Source of the DNA: Polyangiaceae bacterium
GTDB lineage: Bacteria; Myxococcota_A; Polyangia; Polyangiales; Polyangiaceae
Reading direction: 5' to 3'
Length of the DNA stretch: 57,771 nucleotides
NCBI GenBank assembly: GCA_023150915.1
Contig: JAKLKA010000032.1
Coordinates: 1 to 57,771 of the forward strand
The translations under genes and the position numbers were made by a program. The notes beneath the pieces are model-generated. The model was given only the letters and a program-made list of their open reading frames with translations. It made no database searches and had not been told where the DNA came from. Of the stretch, positions 42,660 to 51,957 are shown piece after piece; position 1 is the stretch's first letter; every line of letters begins with the position of its first letter.

Positions 42660-43497
42660 GCGCGCGCGACGACTTCCGACGCGGAGGACAACGCCGAGCA
42701 AGTCCTCGCCGAACCGCGCGGCAAGTCCAAGCGGCAGATCGAGGAGCTGATTGCTCGGTGGTATCCGCGGCCGGACGTGGCGACGACCATCACCACGGTG
42801 GCGCCCGTGCCGGAGCAGACGGAGTTATCAACATGGTCCGGGACAGGTGACCCCGGACCCGCGCCGACCCCCGCCCCTCGCGCACGCCTCGAGCCGCTGT
42901 CGCCGGTGAGCGTTCGCTTGGAGCTCACCGCGCGGGCCGCGTTCCGCGACAAGCTCGAGCAGGCCCAGGCTCTGCTCAGCCACAAGGTGCCGAGCGGCGA
43001 CCTCGCCACCCTCCTCGAACTCGGGCTGGACCTGCTCATCGCGGAAGAGACGAAGCGCCGCTCCGGCGCGGGTAAGCCGCGCAAGCGCCGCGAGACCAAG
43101 CCGGGCTCGCGGCATGTGCCGGTCAACGTCCAGCGCGCGGTGCGAAAGCGGGACGGCGACCAGTACACCTTCACGGATGCCGAAGGCGGACAACTGCTGC
43201 TTGCTGTGTACGGGTCACAATGCCTTCCGAGCGCGCCAGGTCTTCGGCGAGGAGCACATCCAGAACAAGATCGCCGAGGCTCGCGCTCGCCACCCAGTGC
43301 GCGCAGCGCCCCCGGAGTCGCCGGCGCCAGCGGCCGCCTCCACCTCCGACGTCTTCGAGAGGGTTCGCGCGGGCCTGGTGCGTCTGGGGTTCAAGCGAGC
43401 CCAGGCCGAGCAAGCCGTCCGGCACGTGCGCGCGCGTGGAGTGGAGCCTCGACCCGAGCCGCTGCTCCGCGCCGCAATCGCGGTGCTCACACCCTGA
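42660..43497 (+). pseudogene. Decayed HNH endonuclease of the myxobacterial type
   Basis: Translation in one frame gives the familiar region before the nuclease domain (EPRGKSKRQIEELIARW, RLELTARAAFRDKLEQAQAL, SRHVPVNVQRAVRKRDGDQY, FTDAEG). The reading then changes frame to NAFRARQVFGEEHIQNKIAE and the usual C-terminal tail up to the stop at 43497. Between them the His-Asn-His core (about 20 residues with the EFDH motif) is missing, so a deletion plus a frameshift removed the active site. The N-terminal half of the usual protein is also absent. Clearly inactive; typical of the many HNH copies in these genomes. The 227 bp before it show nothing recognisable. Confidence 0.75.
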
Positions 43498-43602
43498 GAC
43501 GCTTCGAGCCCACCCCCACACAAAGGGGGTGGGCCGGAGTGCCGTCAGTCGCCTCGGCAGCGTCAGCGGCCCCGGTACAACTGCGATGACCGGCTCGGGC
43601 GC

Positions 43603-44100
43603 GTGCGCGCGAGCAGAACCCACGCGCGACCGTCGCGCACCGGGCTCTCGCCGGCCGAGTTCCTGGCGTGGGAGGCGAGCCAGCCCGAGCGCCACGAGTA
43701 CTACGGTGGCGAGGTCTTCGCGATGGCAGCCCGCGTCACAGCGCCCTGGCGATGAACGTGGGCGCGCTGCTGGTCGCCGGGCTCCGCGACAAGGGCTGCA
43801 CCGTCCTCTCGTCGGACCAGAAACTCGGGCTTGGGCAGGGCAACCGATACGTGTACGCAGACGTGACAGTGGTGTGCGGACCGTTGGGCTTGCAGCCGGG
43901 AACGGACGACGTGCTCGAGAATCCGAGCATCGTGGTCGCGGTGCTCTCGCACACGACCGAGCAATACGACCGCGGCCTGAAGTGGGACGGCTGTTCGAGT
44001 GAAGCGGGCTACGCAGCGCGAACGGGCGGCGCCGCGTACTGGTTGAGCCAGCACGTCGATCCCAGCGAGTTCTGGCAAGCGAAACCCGGCATGCTTTCTG
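43603..44100 (+). pseudogene. Decayed Uma2-family (DUF820) nuclease
   Basis: GTG at 43603 opens a normal Uma2 start (TGLSPAEFLAWEASQPERHE, then YYGGEVFAMA), but that frame stops at 43752. The family sequence continues in another frame from about 43730: SPRHSALAMNVGALL, SSDQKLGLGQGNRYVYAD, then VVAVLSHTTEQYDRGLKWDG. A short deletion of about 7 nt at the GG-repeat before SPRHS would explain the shift. After residue KWDG the family C-terminus is unrecognisable. Two separate lesions make this a pseudogene. An intact, different Uma2 gene lies at 46815. Confidence 0.75.
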
Positions 44101-46124: not shown

Positions 46125-46179
46125 GCGCTCAGGTTACGAGACAAACGCGGCCCGGAACAGATCCGGCTGGAGCCGCGCG

Positions 46180-46710
46180 TCACTTCGTGCAGGAAGCGCC
46201 GGTGTGCACGAACGTCTCGCTTTTCGACGCGGCGCATGGCCAGCGGGTGGTGGTCAGCCTCGAGAAGAAGCAGTCCAGAAAGGGCTGCGTCCAGCCCGCG
46301 TGGCTCTTGGCCGGCTTGGCAAGGGCAACGCAGCCGTGTTCGTCGAAGGAGAGCGTGAACCCGGAGCAGCCGGCGTTTTCGCCGATGGGGCAGGGCAGCA
46401 CCAGTCCTTGCTGGAGCAGCGCGGTCAGCGAGCCTGCATCGGCGCCAGCACACCCGTCTTGGAGCGCGCCGCACTGCGCTTCGGAGAGGGAGAAGGGCAT
46501 GGGCCCCAACTCCTTGATCAGGGCAGCCGCGTCGGCCGGATCCAGCCCAGTGTCTGGCGTCGGCGGGCCGCCGCCTTGCCCGGCGGTCGCGTCCGCGAAA
46601 CCGGCCGCGCCGCCTGACGGCAAGTCACGATCCGACATCGTCTGACCGCCGCAACGCGCGCAGAGCAGCAGCGCGGCACTCGACACGACTTTCGAAGCGA
46701 GGCGGCGCAT
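46180..46710 (-). CDS. Small exported Cys-containing protein
   Basis: 176-residue exported protein with signal peptide MRRLASKVVSSAALLLCARC; Cys20 could be lipidated but the lipobox (ARC) is poor. The mature protein contains a Gly/Pro-rich segment and a compact domain with five cysteines (EAQCGALQDGCAG, LPCPIGENAGCSG), probably disulfide-bonded. No family recognised. It lies 55 bp upstream of the beta-helix lipoprotein gene on the same strand and may be co-expressed with it. Confidence 0.62.
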   Translation of the reverse strand: MRRLASKVVSSAALLLCARCGGQTMSDRDLPSGGAAGFADATAGQGGGPPTPDTGLDPADAAALIKELGPMPFSLSEAQCGALQDGCAGADAGSLTALLQQGLVLPCPIGENAGCSGFTLSFDEHGCVALAKPAKSHAGWTQPFLDCFFSRLTTTRWPCAASKSETFVHTGASCTK

Positions 46711-46814
46711 CCTCGACGAAGGCTAGCGGCTGCGGCCGAGGCGGGCAACGCGCGCCGCGACCAAGACGACGGTGCGCGATTGCAGCGTCCACCGGGTGAG
46801 GGCACGCTCGTGCC

Positions 46815-47375
46815 GTGGCCAGTCCCGCTCGAACTCACGCGACCTACGCGGATCTCCTGGCCGTGCCCCCGGGCAAAGTTGCCCAGCTCATCGGCGGAGT
46901 GCTCCACACCCATCCGCGACCGGCCGCGCGACACACCAACGCAGCATCCGTCTTGGGCGAAGAGCTCGGTCCGCCGTTTCGGCGCGGTCGCGGCGGTCCC
47001 GGCGGTTGGGTCATCCTGGATGGGCCGGAGCTGCATCTCGGCGCCGACATCTTGGTTCCCGATCTTTCGGGCTGGCGCCGCGCGCGCATGCCAGAGATCC
47101 CCGACGCGGCGTTCTTCACCCTGCCACCCGATTGGGTGTGCGAGGTCCTTTCTCCGTCCACCGAGGCGATGGATCGCGACGAGAAGCTACCGGTCTACGC
47201 GCGCGAATGCGTAGCGCACGTCTGGCTCGTCGACCCCATCGCGAAGACGCTGGAAGTGCTGCGGCTCGACGGGGACACCTACCGCGTGATTGCCACGTGG
47301 CGGGAGTCCGCTCGGGTGCACGCCGAGCCCTTCGACGCGATCGAGCTCGACTTGTCGCTGCTCTGGCAACTGTGA
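46815..47375 (+). CDS. Uma2-family (DUF820) PD-(D/E)xK endonuclease
   Basis: 186-residue Uma2 protein with an apparently intact nuclease core: Asp in ADILVPDLSGWR, Glu in WVCEVLSPST and Lys in MDRDEKLPVYA, then the usual WLVDP strand and the C-terminal FDAIELDLSLLW. GTG start. Uma2 proteins are predicted restriction-endonuclease-fold enzymes abundant in cyanobacteria and myxobacteria; their role is unknown. Its stop overlaps the GTG of the shortened antitoxin gene (GTGA), placing it as the first gene of a three-gene unit with MazF. Confidence 0.87.
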   Translation: MASPARTHATYADLLAVPPGKVAQLIGGVLHTHPRPAARHTNAASVLGEELGPPFRRGRGGPGGWVILDGPELHLGADILVPDLSGWRRARMPEIPDAAFFTLPPDWVCEVLSPSTEAMDRDEKLPVYARECVAHVWLVDPIAKTLEVLRLDGDTYRVIATWRESARVHAEPFDAIELDLSLLWQL

Positions 47376-47539
47376 GGTCCCGGCGCGGCGCCGCTCGGGA
47401 CGCGGTCCTCTCGTACCTCGAGGCGCGCCGCCGCCGCGACGTCGATGCGCGCATCCGCGCTGCCTACTCGGGAGGCGAACGGGATCTCCTGACGGACGTC
47501 GAGGAGATGCTCGAAGGACAGGCATGGCCCGAGAAGTGA
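47372..47539 (+). CDS. Shortened antitoxin of a MazEF-type module
   Basis: 55-residue protein from a GTG overlapping the Uma2 stop. It matches the C-terminal part of ribbon-helix-helix antitoxins that pair with MazF: DAVLSYLEARRRRDVDARI, then AAYSGGERDLLTDVEEM and a Trp near the end (GQAWPEK). The N-terminal DNA-binding ribbon-helix-helix normally found before this is missing. It overlaps mazF by 16 bp, the usual antitoxin-toxin arrangement. It may still neutralise the toxin through its C-terminal part but should not bind DNA. Confidence 0.6.
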   Translation: MRSRRGAARDAVLSYLEARRRRDVDARIRAAYSGGERDLLTDVEEMLEGQAWPEK

Positions 47540-47850
47540 GCCGTGGCGAGATCCGCCTCTACACATTTCGCTCACCGGACAAGCGCAGGCCGGTGCTGGT
47601 TCTCAGCCGGCAGGTCCTCCTCGACGTGTTGCAGACGGCAACGGTCGTGCCGATCACATCGTCCATGCACGGTTCACCCTCGGAGGTCGAGTTGGGCGTA
47701 GCCGAGGGGCTCGAGTCACCATCGTGTGCGAACCTGGCGAACGTGCAGACCGTACGACAGAAGGATCTGTCGCGGATCGTAGGGAGCGCTGGTCCCGAGA
47801 AGCTCGAGGAGATCTGCCGCGCGCTCGCCGTGGCCACCGGCTGCGACTGA
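47524..47850 (+). CDS. mazF: MazF/PemK-family toxin (endoribonuclease)
   Basis: 108-residue MazF-type toxin. The N-terminal strand SRGEIRLYTF, the loop DKRRPVLVLSR and TATVVPITSSMHGSPSEVEL are the family landmarks, including the Arg and Ser/Thr residues that line the RNase site. MazF cleaves mRNA at short single-stranded sequences. It is encoded 16 bp inside the end of the shortened antitoxin and downstream of a Uma2 gene. Length is normal and no damage is seen, so a functioning antitoxin must exist here or elsewhere. Confidence 0.9.
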   Translation: MAREVSRGEIRLYTFRSPDKRRPVLVLSRQVLLDVLQTATVVPITSSMHGSPSEVELGVAEGLESPSCANLANVQTVRQKDLSRIVGSAGPEKLEEICRALAVATGCD

Positions 47851-47924
47851 ATGCGGATCCGCACTCCCGCGGTGCACGGCAAGGGCCGGGGGCGCGCAGG
47901 CCCGGTGCGGCGTCACGGTTTGGC

Positions 47925-49496
47925 TCACTTGGGCACGCGCCACACCGCAGCGTGAGCCGCGCCCGGCACCGCACCGATCCAGTAGACATGCGTCGCGTCC
48001 GCCGCGACCGCGAAGACCGTGGTGTCCTTGGCGAGCGTGTGACGCGCGCCGGTCGACTTCGAGAAGGCGACGAGGTCAGAAGACAGTCCGACGTAGAGCG
48101 CGGTCGCGTCCATCGCGAGCGCCGGGCTCAGCAACCCTTGCGCGTACACGGCGCGCTCCACCAGAGCGTGGTCAGTGCGGAAGACCTTGTGCAACTTCTG
48201 GTTATCGCGCGCCAAGAAGTAGGCGCCGCTCGCGTCGACTGCGCTGTCACCCGGGTACCCCCCGGCGGCCAAGAGTTGCGTCCCGCCTTCGCTGCTGCAG
48301 TCGATTCGGCGGCGCATGACGAAGCCGGCGGGCGCTGCATACACGTAGTCCTCCCAGAGCGAGAGCCCGAGCGTCAGCTGCCCGACCACACCGATCTCGC
48401 GCACGCCGCCCGTCCACTCGTAGAGGCGCCCCGGCGCTGAGCCCCAGTCGCCCGGAACCACATCGGTCGACCACAGCACGCGCCCTTGACCGACGACCAG
48501 ATCCCTGGGCGCGCCTTCCCGCGCGGCCAGTAGCTGCGGTGCGCCCTCGCGCCACCGGTACACCGCGCCCTCCCCCGGGTGTCCCGGCCCGCCTCCCCCA
48601 CCGAGCGACGGAGCACTCAGCACTACGGCCCAGTGTGGCATTCCGTTCACGGTGTCGAGCGCCGCGACGAAGGGCAGTCCATCCGCGAGGACCACCGGCG
48701 GACCGCCGGACTTGTGCCACGCGACGACGCGCCCGGGCACACCGGCTCCCGGATCGCCCGACTCGGACCAGTACACCCGACTCGAGTCGACCGCGATCCG
48801 GGCGGCAAGCTCGTCCAGGTGCACGAGGGCGTTGTCCAGCTGTGCGATCATCTCGGGAGTACAAACGCCCGGCGTCTCGCAGCCGTTCGCCGGATCGCCG
48901 TCGCAGCTCGACCAGCCGTCCTCGCAGTGGACGCTGCACACTCCGAGCGCACAGGCGGGCACTTCGTGCGCCCCTGTCGCGCCACACGCCTGGCCGCAAC
49001 CTCCGCAGCTTTCCACGTCGAGCAGTGGCTCGGCGCACTGTCCACCACAGAGAGCCGCCCCGGAGCAGAGGCATGCTCCGGCGACACACGCCTCGCCCGC
49101 GCCGGGACAGCGCGCGAAGTCGTCGACCCTGCCGTTGCAGTCGTTGTCCCGCCCGTCGCACTCCTCCTGTCCCGACCATTCACACGAGCAGAAGTCGTCG
49201 TCGCCCGCGAAGCCGCGGCTGCACGACCACTCCGGACCGGGCCCGCAGTCTAGGTTTTCGTAGCACCGCTTCGTGCACACACCGTGGCACGCCATCCCGA
49301 GCGCGCAGTCGCCGCTTTTCCGACAAACCGACGGGCACTCGGGACCGTCGGCGACCGCCCAACCCGACGGCCCAGTCACAGCGACGCGCTCGCGCTCACC
49401 CTCGCTGCACGCCGACGCGAGCAGCAACGCAGCCGCCAACGCCGGCGCCAGCGCGACAGCGCTGGTCCGCGACCGCAATCCGCCCGCCCGACGCAT
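47925..49496 (-). CDS. Large Cys-rich lipoprotein with beta-propeller-like C-terminus
   Basis: 523-residue lipoprotein; ATG 49496 gives signal peptide ending LLLASAC. The first part (about 35-200) is Cys-rich with short EGF/MopE-like units (CPSVCRKSGDCALGMACHG, EECDGRDNDCNGRVDDF, SCGGCGQAC), typical of myxobacterial surface proteins. The C-terminal 300 residues show repeats of the kind seen in six-bladed propellers (AAYVG/VYW/LVA units such as AVDSSRVYWSESG, GQGRVLWSTD, AMDATALYVGLSS). Ligand unknown. Confidence 0.82.
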   Translation of the reverse strand: MRRAGGLRSRTSAVALAPALAAALLLASACSEGERERVAVTGPSGWAVADGPECPSVCRKSGDCALGMACHGVCTKRCYENLDCGPGPEWSCSRGFAGDDDFCSCEWSGQEECDGRDNDCNGRVDDFARCPGAGEACVAGACLCSGAALCGGQCAEPLLDVESCGGCGQACGATGAHEVPACALGVCSVHCEDGWSSCDGDPANGCETPGVCTPEMIAQLDNALVHLDELAARIAVDSSRVYWSESGDPGAGVPGRVVAWHKSGGPPVVLADGLPFVAALDTVNGMPHWAVVLSAPSLGGGGGPGHPGEGAVYRWREGAPQLLAAREGAPRDLVVGQGRVLWSTDVVPGDWGSAPGRLYEWTGGVREIGVVGQLTLGLSLWEDYVYAAPAGFVMRRRIDCSSEGGTQLLAAGGYPGDSAVDASGAYFLARDNQKLHKVFRTDHALVERAVYAQGLLSPALAMDATALYVGLSSDLVAFSKSTGARHTLAKDTTVFAVAADATHVYWIGAVPGAAHAAVWRVPK

Positions 49497-49659
49497 GTTG
49501 CCAGTGTGACACGACGAAGGGGCCATCGGGCGCCGCAGCGGCCGCGGCTGCCCCTTGCCCCCGCTTGCCGGCAGCGTGGCGGCGAGGCACCGGTCGTCGC
49601 CAGGCTCGACCGGCGCGAATCCGCTATGCGCTCAGCGTTTCGTAGGCGACAATCTGCCC

Positions 49660-51024
49660 GTGGGGTTCGGTGCCCGCGCCGCGAGTCTGGTGTGTTGTGT
49701 CGGCGCGTTGGCGTGTGGCCAGGTCACGATCGAGGAGCAGGCTGCGCCCAGCGCCCCTGCCGAGGGTTGGGTGCGAACCTGGTCGGGCAGCGGTCAGACG
49801 GAGCTGCACGCGCTTGCGGTGGGCAGCGAACGAGTTTGGGTGGGCGGGCAGTTCACAGGAACGACGGACTTCGATCCCGGGCCGACCGCCCTGGAGCTGG
49901 TCGGCGCAGACGCCTCCGAGCCCAGCGGGTACCTGTCCTGGTTTGCTGTGGATGGCACATGGCTCGGGGCTCGCACCTCGTTCATCCCCGAGAGCATCGC
50001 CGCCGATCCCGAAGGCGGCGCCTACCTCATCGGAATGCAGGGGAGCACGCTCGGCAACGGCGAGGTCTTCCTGCAGCGCGTCGGCGCAGACGGGCACGAG
50101 CTCTGGACGCACAGCTGGGACTGGGCGGCCGTCTCCTTCAGCGGGGCGGTGACGGTGGTTCCCGACGGTGGTGTCGTCGCGTCGTTCACGTACCACGTCC
50201 CGACGGACCTCGACCCCGGGCCCGCCGAATGGACGGTGGAGACCCAGGGCGGCGAGGACGTCGCCATCGTGGCATTCGCTCCCGATGGAGGCTTTCGTTG
50301 GGGGTCGACGTTCGGGGGCCCGGGGGACGACTCAGGCGGAGCCTCGGCATCGATGGCCGACGGGGGGGTAATCGTCTCGGGGAGCGTCGCAGACCCTTCT
50401 GCGCCGGGCAGCTTCGGAGCCGATCACGCCTGGCTTGCGCGTCTTGACGCTCACGGGGCGAAGCTGTGGTCGCGAGAATGGGGTGGAGATCACCACGCCA
50501 GCGCCGGTGGCGTGGCGGTGGACCAGAACGGGACGATCTACCTCTTCCAGCATCTCGGCATCGCCGATGGGGGCAGCGCGTCCATCGACCTCGATCCCGG
50601 GCCGGGCACCCACTTCGTCACGGTCTACAGCAAGGAGCTGTTTCTTTCGCGGTTCGACGCGGAAGGTGGCTTCCGCTGGGCCGAGCCGAATCTCGGAGGC
50701 TCGCTCTGGGCACGCGGGGACTCGGTCATGATCGCGGGGTGGTGCGGCGCGATCGTGGATCTCGATCCCGGCCCGGCGCTGGACCCGTGCGTTGGGATGT
50801 TCGGCATGACGGTCAGCGCTGAAGGTGAGTACCTGGGCACGAAGCAGCGTCCCGCTGACTCCAGCGGGAACTGGGCCTATTCAGCCATCGGGTCTCGTGA
50901 CGCCAGCACGCTCTTCGTCGCCGGCCAGTACTTCGAACCCGCGAAACAGCCGAACCCGTTCGGTCCGCCGTTCGCACCGGTGCCAGGCAACGGATCGTTC
51001 CTGGCACTCGCGCCCTTGGACTGA
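49660..51024 (+). CDS. Lipoprotein with DPGP-containing beta-propeller-like repeats
   Basis: 454 residues from GTG 49660, chosen because it gives a lipoprotein signal peptide ending ALAC; an in-frame ATG at 49555 would add 35 non-hydrophobic residues. The mature part has repeats of about 60-90 residues, each with a (F/L)DPGP signature (DFDPGPTALEL, DLDPGPAEW, DLDPGPGTHF, DLDPGPALD) preceded by strands such as GVVASFTYHVPT. This resembles secreted SBBP/delta-60-like repeat proteins and suggests a propeller. Divergent from the Cys-rich lipoprotein. The 217 bp after it show no convincing gene. Confidence 0.78.
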   Translation: MGFGARAASLVCCVGALACGQVTIEEQAAPSAPAEGWVRTWSGSGQTELHALAVGSERVWVGGQFTGTTDFDPGPTALELVGADASEPSGYLSWFAVDGTWLGARTSFIPESIAADPEGGAYLIGMQGSTLGNGEVFLQRVGADGHELWTHSWDWAAVSFSGAVTVVPDGGVVASFTYHVPTDLDPGPAEWTVETQGGEDVAIVAFAPDGGFRWGSTFGGPGDDSGGASASMADGGVIVSGSVADPSAPGSFGADHAWLARLDAHGAKLWSREWGGDHHASAGGVAVDQNGTIYLFQHLGIADGGSASIDLDPGPGTHFVTVYSKELFLSRFDAEGGFRWAEPNLGGSLWARGDSVMIAGWCGAIVDLDPGPALDPCVGMFGMTVSAEGEYLGTKQRPADSSGNWAYSAIGSRDASTLFVAGQYFEPAKQPNPFGPPFAPVPGNGSFLALAPLD

Positions 51025-51241
51025 AGCGCCAACCCTGCCGCCCGTTCCCCCGCGGTGCCGCCGCTGCTGGAACCGAATCGTAATGCAGATCCGCGCTCGC
51101 CCTCTCTGCTCGGCAAGCAGCGTCAGCCACTGACGCTCGTCCGTCGGCGGGATGCGGTTTGAATACACCTGGACGCGGCGCGTGCCCCCGTCGGGCACAA
51201 GAAGGTTGCGACAGCCGGTGACGGACGCGGCCGCCAGTTCG

Positions 51242-51937
51242 TCAAGGCGGTGGCTTGCCCTTCGTGACGCGGCGGCTCTCGATGCGAAGCCCCTGCGCTC
51301 CACGCGGCGCGAAGCGGATGGTCTCGGACCAGGAGTGCGTCGGACCGGTCGGACCGGCCGTGTGCACGACGGCGTAGTCCACCACGACGCGGTCGCCGTC
51401 GCGCTCCAGACGGAGCTCGTCGAAAGCGGACTGGGAGAAGGCCGTGGTGGGGATCTGGGCACAGCGCGACGGCGCATCGTCGCCCAGCCAGCCCAAGATG
51501 AACGCCCTGTGCTTCGCGCCGCACTGCTCACCCAGCCCCAGCGCGTCCGTCAGCTCGCAGCGCATCTTGCCCGCTCCTCCGTCCGGGCTTGGAGCCGACG
51601 TCCAGGTGCAGTCGGTGCCGACCGTGGTCGAGAGGTAACCGACCGCCGCTCGCTCGGCGTCGCTCAGCCGCCCGATTGCGGGGCGGTCGAGCGTCAGGGC
51701 CCATCCGGCTTCTTCGCCCTGACGCCAGAGCAGCCTCCGCGGGCCAGGAGTCGGCGGCTGCGGCAGGGGGGCCGGGGCAGGTCGCGCCGCGACGGCGGGT
51801 GCGCTCGGCTCAGCCGCCCCCGGTCGCACGTTCGAACCTTCGCACGCCGCCAGCAGCGCCAGGATGAACGTCAGCGATACGCCGCGGGCTGGCGCGACGA
51901 AGCGACTGCGCGCACCCGGCCGGAAAACTTCCGACAC
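51242..51937 (-). CDS. Lipoprotein of unknown function
   Basis: 231 residues from GTG 51937, the only sensible start that precedes the signal peptide (SLTFILALLAAC). A Pro/Ala linker leads to a mixed alpha/beta domain (WALTLDRPAIGRLSDAERAA, MRCELTDALGLGEQCGAK, HSWSETIRFAPRGAQGLRIE). No family is recognised. The N-region before the hydrophobic core is long (20 residues), so the start is uncertain. It is preceded by a strong palindromic hairpin at 51958-51998. Confidence 0.65.
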   Translation of the reverse strand: MSEVFRPGARSRFVAPARGVSLTFILALLAACEGSNVRPGAAEPSAPAVAARPAPAPLPQPPTPGPRRLLWRQGEEAGWALTLDRPAIGRLSDAERAAVGYLSTTVGTDCTWTSAPSPDGGAGKMRCELTDALGLGEQCGAKHRAFILGWLGDDAPSRCAQIPTTAFSQSAFDELRLERDGDRVVVDYAVVHTAGPTGPTHSWSETIRFAPRGAQGLRIESRRVTKGKPPP

Positions 51938-51957
51938 TGCGGCAGCCAAAATGAAGC

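Follow-up and report, generated by a model that had tools for sequence, protein, structure and literature searches.

A Uma2 gene running into a shortened MazE-type antitoxin gene and an intact mazF in a Polyangiaceae genome

We analyzed a 57,771-nt stretch of a Polyangiaceae draft genome (the window), in which the gene of a Uma2-family protein runs into a 55-codon antitoxin gene and then into mazF. By homology, the 55-residue protein is a MazE-type antitoxin minus its first 27–28 residues (the ribbon and helix 1), and the locus has the look of a one-off rearrangement in which the toxin-blocking tail was spared, rather than of a conserved new three-gene system. The reading that we favor, and hold to be probable if well short of certain, is that mazEF was joined to the end of Uma2, which would have left a minimal, tail-only antitoxin, no self-repression and expression driven from before Uma2.

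The locus and its three proteins

An ORF analysis of the window gave three overlapping frames, Uma2, antitoxin and MazF. The title of the original prediction, which called the genes fused, is wrong in this respect, and the layout it gave is exact to the base:

46711–46814, no strand: 104-bp gap between a divergent ORF and Uma2, presumed from the ORF layout to be the promoter region
46815–47375, plus strand: Uma2-family protein of 186 aa, complete as judged by its relatives (PF05685, E 4e-21; D83, E110 and K124 aligned with solved Uma2 chains)
47367–47394, no strand: 28-bp junction between the end of Uma2 similarity and the start of mazE similarity, holding the Uma2 stop and the antitoxin GTG
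47372–47539, plus strand: MazE-type antitoxin by homology, 55 aa, without ribbon and helix 1, with helix 2 and the toxin-facing C-terminal tail kept
47514–47518, plus strand: AAGGA, Shine–Dalgarno-like, 5 nt before the MazF ATG and inside the antitoxin gene; the homologue in the same-genus genome G001 has AAGGA too
47524–47850, plus strand: MazF/PemK-family toxin of 108 aa, frame intact (PF02452, E 2.4e-14; phmmer match to M. tuberculosis MazF3)

The Uma2 stop and the antitoxin start share GTGA, and antitoxin and MazF overlap by 16 bp (47524–47539). Because the ORF before the unit is divergent (46180–46710, minus strand) and the one after it convergent (47925–49526, minus strand), the unit looks self-contained; neither flanking ORF has a Pfam match. 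No sigma-70 consensus or terminator-like site was found in 46600–48000, a search that says little for a GC-rich genome.

The Uma2 protein belongs to its family by a Pfam match spanning positions 6–169 of 172, and Pfam finds only this domain in it, with no other DNA-binding domain and no sign of a regulatory one. Residues D83, E110 and K124 align with acidic and lysine residues in the nuclease core of solved Uma2 chains (relatives in the PDB are 9y1l, 6okh, 3ot2 and 1wdj), and we take them to be the catalytic residues of the PD-(D/E)XK fold. We examined the ends of 42 Uma2 loci, 37 of them alignable with the window's Uma2. Relatives at 53–72% identity reach the same LW near the end, most of them followed by A and at least one residue before the stop. 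Since relatives end at this same LW plus one or more residues, the window's Uma2 is complete by this comparison, with the origin of at most its last two codons in doubt. The gene (46815–47375) also matches the PADLOC candidate defense model PDC-S03 (E 9.6e-16). The family (PF05685, COG4636) was described in 2009 (PMC2701414) as a likely solo toxin, rarely found with known antitoxins; the window's Uma2 is a complete member that differs in directly preceding an antitoxin remnant and MazF.

MazF is intact, as had been claimed: its 108-aa frame is open, the Pfam match covers positions 2–107 of 109, and phmmer aligns it with the solved MazF3 of M. tuberculosis at E 3.9e-11. The antitoxin gene lies upstream of it and overlaps it, in the usual MazEF order. 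The 16-bp overlap, which the original prediction mentions, is nothing odd in itself, as 47 of 53 loci with this antitoxin type share the offset between the antitoxin end and MazF (the window having been fetched twice); on this count the overlap is ancestral. A phage or plasmid origin gained no support: no relative of MazF was found in viral_contigs, and the 7 of 72,556 plasmid records that matched it were all below 40% identity.

The 55-residue protein matches no antitoxin family in Pfam or NCBIfam, its one sub-threshold Pfam match being FliG_M (E 0.23). When 14 full-length antitoxins from related MazF loci were made into a profile, this matched the 55-residue protein with 40.8 bits over model positions 26–77, that is, to the model end; the protein is also about 66–67% identical over 52 residues to the full-length antitoxin of G001 (80 aa, residues 28/29–80). 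With these two matches, the homology is far above chance and the absence of 27–28 N-terminal residues is clear; comparison with relatives shows both the missing part and the whole proteins. The antitoxin had been predicted to lack the ribbon-helix-helix. This holds for the ribbon and helix 1, the profile match starting at position 26, and does not hold for helix 2, which is kept except for its first residues. The predicted retention of the toxin-facing C-terminus stands, as far as homology tells, with the match running to the model end and the last 10 residues being those of G001. Antitoxins with the complete ribbon-helix-helix domain that defines this kind of MazEF are present in G001 and in a second genome of the genus, G002, and absent from the window.

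Where the missing part might lie was searched for in several ways. Among the matches listed for the six frames of the window (profile, tblastn), no other piece of a MazE-type antitoxin scored above chance, and in the rest of the genome the G001 antitoxin found only a paralogue on contig C212 and one weak match on C219 (E 0.51). The C212 antitoxin is full-length, of the same tail type and 35% identical to that of G001. An insertion of Uma2 into mazE was rejected, as no front piece of mazE was found before Uma2, in the window or in the genome. Also rejected was a longer antitoxin starting at GTG 47297 (80 aa), in which the extra residues are read from Uma2 coding DNA in a different frame and do not match the front of the antitoxin profile; an in-frame start inside Uma2, this GTG for example, would be a minor possibility for the true antitoxin start. 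The antitoxin GTG itself is preceded by no Shine–Dalgarno-like sequence, so that reinitiation at GTGA is an assumption.

Relatives, junction and gene order

The closest MazF found, 81% identical to the window's, is that of G001, where it follows an 80-residue antitoxin of the ribbon-helix-helix type whose end is placed, relative to MazF, as in the window. In G002 an 86-codon frame holds the antitoxin at full length (75%), with its MazF cut off by the contig end. Neither antitoxin has a Uma2 beside it, within 10 kb in G001 and within 6 kb on the one side that the contig end leaves in G002; mazEF of G001 lies on contig C3 and its best Uma2, among the matches listed, on C2. Uma2 similarity ends in the window at codon 184 (to 47366) and DNA similarity to G001 mazE begins at 47395, which places the breakpoint in 47367–47394. 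That two separate genes were joined there in a draft contig as an assembly artefact is the least probable of the readings we considered: the genome is a draft of 295 contigs, yet the junction lies deep inside a 57.8-kb contig with frames open on both sides, and no second copy of the antitoxin front half was found in the genome with the full antitoxin as query.

The mazEF site of G001 is empty in the window's genome, its flanks lying 261 bp apart on contig C83 (648 bp in G001), and in G002 the same flanks lie 3.8 kb apart on C16. For the window's own site, the flanking stretches are syntenic in both G001 and G002, where other ORFs fill the interval and no match to Uma2 or antitoxin was found between the flanks. 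With the G001 site empty here and the window's site otherwise occupied in G001 and G002, mazE copies sit at three sites in three genomes, and the mazEF module is mobile, to judge from this synteny. The interval 46150–51949 of the window is a variable site: the three genomes compared within the genus differ in the genes that lie between the same flanks. A further stretch of the window, 43000–43634, belongs to a dispersed repeat family, of which the window's genome has numerous partial copies and G001 about a dozen near-identical places; the neighboring ORFs have no Pfam match.

According to the original prediction, relatives with a full-length antitoxin at this site and no Uma2 would speak for a one-off deletion. 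G001 and G002 do have full-length antitoxins without Uma2, at other sites; since these do not lie at the window's chromosomal position, the prediction's test came out only in a weaker form. The deletion it had proposed, joining two unrelated genes, gains support from the full-length antitoxin in both relatives, the complete Uma2 and the lack of a conserved order.

We searched for this order from both sides. Translations in six frames of 135 loci holding relatives of the window's MazF were searched with a Uma2 profile. Species genomes supplied 80 of these loci, a set of 59 relatives 30, an order scan of 183 genomes 18 and the window's own genome 7, some loci having been fetched twice (L005 = L016 = the window; L007 = L040 = contig C132 of the window's genome, G000). 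The species-genome loci were the best 80 of at least 92 confirmed and had flanks of up to 3 kb, the other genome-search loci flanks of 1.5 kb; more distant linkage, or MazF unlike the window's, could be missed. Uma2 lay directly upstream of MazF in 1 of the 135 loci (including the best 80 of at least 92 from species genomes), and MazF directly downstream of Uma2 in 1 of 38 distinct Uma2 loci (42 fetched, among the matches listed). Both were the window itself. The conserved Uma2–antitoxin–MazF order for which a check had been proposed is thus not found, and a conserved Uma2–MazF operon was rejected. Looser neighborhoods occur: L025 has a divergent Uma2 near MazF, and a MazF-like frame lies upstream of Uma2 on the same strand at two loci, L172, where the match covers 63 residues about 1.4 kb from Uma2, and L010, which is the C132 locus. 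At the latter (L007 = L040), the antitoxin is unlike the ribbon-helix-helix type and Uma2 follows MazF by ∼320 bp.

These counts bear on whether Uma2 is a working third member that acts on the MazF pair, by neutralization or regulation, or is guarded by it, a reading to which we give a low probability. The overlap would couple the frames translationally, Uma2 matches a candidate defense protein (PDC-S03, E 9.6e-16), L062 (see below) links another restriction-type protein to a MazE tail and MazF, and a second MazF locus of the genome, C132, has its Uma2 ∼320 bp downstream. Set against this are the single occurrence of the order on either side (1/135 and 1/38), which leaves the suggestion that Uma2 took over a role without support, the lack of any DNA-binding domain besides Uma2 in Pfam, and the reversed order at C132, with an antitoxin unlike the window's. 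Beyond the C132 neighborhood and the L062 fusion, nothing hints at a Uma2–MazF partnership.

Rates of change and other antitoxins without an N-terminus

Between the window and G001, MazF has diverged with a dN of 0.165 and a dS of 1.22 (NG86), and with four outgroups the changes unique to the window and to G001 numbered 4:6, 4:9, 5:4 and 5:5. This shows the window's MazF to be under purifying selection and not accelerated relative to G001, as far as substitution counts can tell. The antitoxin (dN 0.275, dS 1.13) gave ratios of 6:2, 7:2, 7:2 and 8:4, a faster change on the window's branch, with the first residues of helix 2 taking up to 4 of 8 window-only changes, depending on the outgroup. Its last 10 residues are identical in both genomes; as 16 bp at this end also belong to the MazF gene, the conservation is not independent and may be partly that of MazF.

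The faster change would also fit decay. In that case the module is dying and its antitoxin is a relic without function, while MazF persists because its expression is low, its toxicity weak or another antitoxin in the cell keeps it in check. This is the main rival, given the faster antitoxin change, the tail conservation that is not independent, and a MazF divergence most of which may be older than the junction; we nevertheless regard it as unlikely. The loss of the promoter and the antitoxin N-terminus agrees with it, as do six further PemK/MazF loci in the genome, one of which (C212) has an antitoxin that shares the tail type and is full-length, and a locus elsewhere, L077, that pairs a broken MazF with a truncated antitoxin. 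Against it, the window's MazF is intact and not accelerated, and the toxin-facing end of the antitoxin is unchanged.

Antitoxins of the window's tail type, taken as matches to the antitoxin profile of 15 bits or more that reach model position 74 or beyond, were found in 50 of 130 distinct MazF loci (including the best 80 of at least 92 from species genomes), 45 of them N-terminally complete and 5 scored short; the other 80 have other antitoxins, or none recognized by the profile. With L100 set aside for its contig end, 4 of 49 lack the N-terminus: the window, L062, L070 and L077. Three of these antitoxins (window, L070 and L077) have their first residue near one structural boundary, the start of helix 2; for L070 we chose the start ourselves, as its frame opens with unrelated residues further upstream. 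L062 and L070 have an intact MazF. That of L077 reads in two frames and is therefore broken or mis-sequenced; an upstream frame on the opposite strand of this locus resembles, by eye, a Phd-type antitoxin. At L063 (JAKFYH010000059.1) MazF matches at residues 7–107 in one frame, and directly upstream no antitoxin of the window's type was recognized. In L024, L025, L039, L040, L190–L193, L202 and others, MazF is preceded by a different short antitoxin-like frame, by eye of an LxPLVxKLxxxERxRLARL... type, with no or a weak match to the ribbon-helix-helix profile.

L062 (positions 101–2983; OY282447.1, a Pseudomonadales chromosome) encodes a 961-residue methyltransferase (domain matches N6_Mtase and Eco57I; type IIG-like matches in PADLOC). 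A MazE tail forms its C-terminal end, in frame, and an intact MazF comes next. Alignments with paralogues from the host genome stop at residue 914 (one stop inside) and residue 904, so the enzyme is complete and carries the tail as an addition; a homologue in G062 also aligns to residue 904. As in the window, a complete restriction-type gene is joined to a MazE tail with an intact MazF after it; L062 differs in being a true in-frame fusion, in having lost helix 2 as well, and in its unrelated upstream gene. Among 58 genomes around and including the host, only the host has the fusion. None of the plasmid matches listed for the protein (15 of 90 records) covers the tail, 14 of them stopping no later than residue 903 of 961 and the other at 926. 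A family of methyltransferase–tail fusions was rejected on these two results. There is a slim chance that restriction-type genes have repeatedly captured MazE tails, Uma2 by coupled translation in the window and an Eco57I-type methyltransferase by in-frame fusion in L062, so that MazF would be held only while the nuclease or restriction-modification gene is translated. The toxin would then act as a guard on a defense gene, perhaps at first by accident.

A proposed tail-only antitoxin behind Uma2

In the working that we favor, a mobile mazEF module would have become attached to the 3′ end of a complete Uma2 gene, solitary and unrelated to it, at the cost of the module's own promoter and the first 27–28 codons of mazE. 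Most of helix 2, the C-terminal tail, which binds the groove of MazF in other MazE proteins, and the MazF ribosome-binding site (AAGGA) inside the antitoxin gene would have been kept, and with them what is needed to restrain MazF. Transcription of the unit would probably start from the promoter before Uma2, and the antitoxin would be translated by termination–reinitiation at GTGA, coupled to Uma2; Uma2 would supply transcription and translation, and no antitoxin activity. Since the ribosome-binding site of MazF and the toxin-facing tail survived, a minimal antitoxin may be made in this way. The 55-residue protein would neutralize MazF without binding operator DNA, so that the pair would not be self-regulated. 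Self-repression of the operon is expected to be lost, because both its own promoter region and the DNA-contact part of the antitoxin are absent. The earlier statement that this antitoxin cannot repress transcription as usual would be consistent with published work on MazE6 and DNA, which places the DNA contacts in the ribbon and the start of helix 2 and toxin binding in the C-terminal part (PMC9477884).

That a tail could suffice is suggested by work on MazE fragments, as described in PMC8145246. There, short C-terminal pieces of MazE inhibit MazF in vitro, truncated pieces are comparable to full antitoxins in their affinity for M. tuberculosis MazF proteins, and a 15-residue helix abolishes cleavage by MazF-mt9 in vitro at a ratio of 10:1. 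A 10-residue peptide no longer binds the toxin according to the same text (PMC8145246), so that short tails can fail.

The window's unit resembles MazEF systems with a ribbon-helix-helix MazE (such as M. tuberculosis MazEF6 and MazEF9) in its MazF/PemK toxin, the antitoxin coming first, the overlapping frames and the toxin-facing tail, and differs from them in lacking the antitoxin ribbon and helix 1 and a promoter region of its own, and in the preceding Uma2 gene. It would work like MazEF yet lacks the DNA-binding domain, a defining feature of this type. The nearest functional parallel to its antitoxin is PaaA2 of paaR2-paaA2-parE2, as described in PMC8630535, an antitoxin likewise without DNA-binding motifs behind another operon gene. 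The first gene of that operon encodes an HTH regulator, whereas in the window it is a Uma2 without sign of a regulatory domain and its linkage is not conserved. At the level of titles and the beginnings of abstracts, with subscription literature mostly outside the search, no published description of a Uma2–short antitoxin–MazF arrangement was found.

If the 55-residue protein works, the locus would be a natural case of MazF neutralized by helix 2 and the tail alone, and of a module that endures without self-repression by being placed under another gene. The visible scars of toxin–antitoxin rearrangements would then be those that keep the tail. The 4 of 49 truncated antitoxins of this tail type, three of them with the same boundary, offer natural test cases for tail-only antitoxins.
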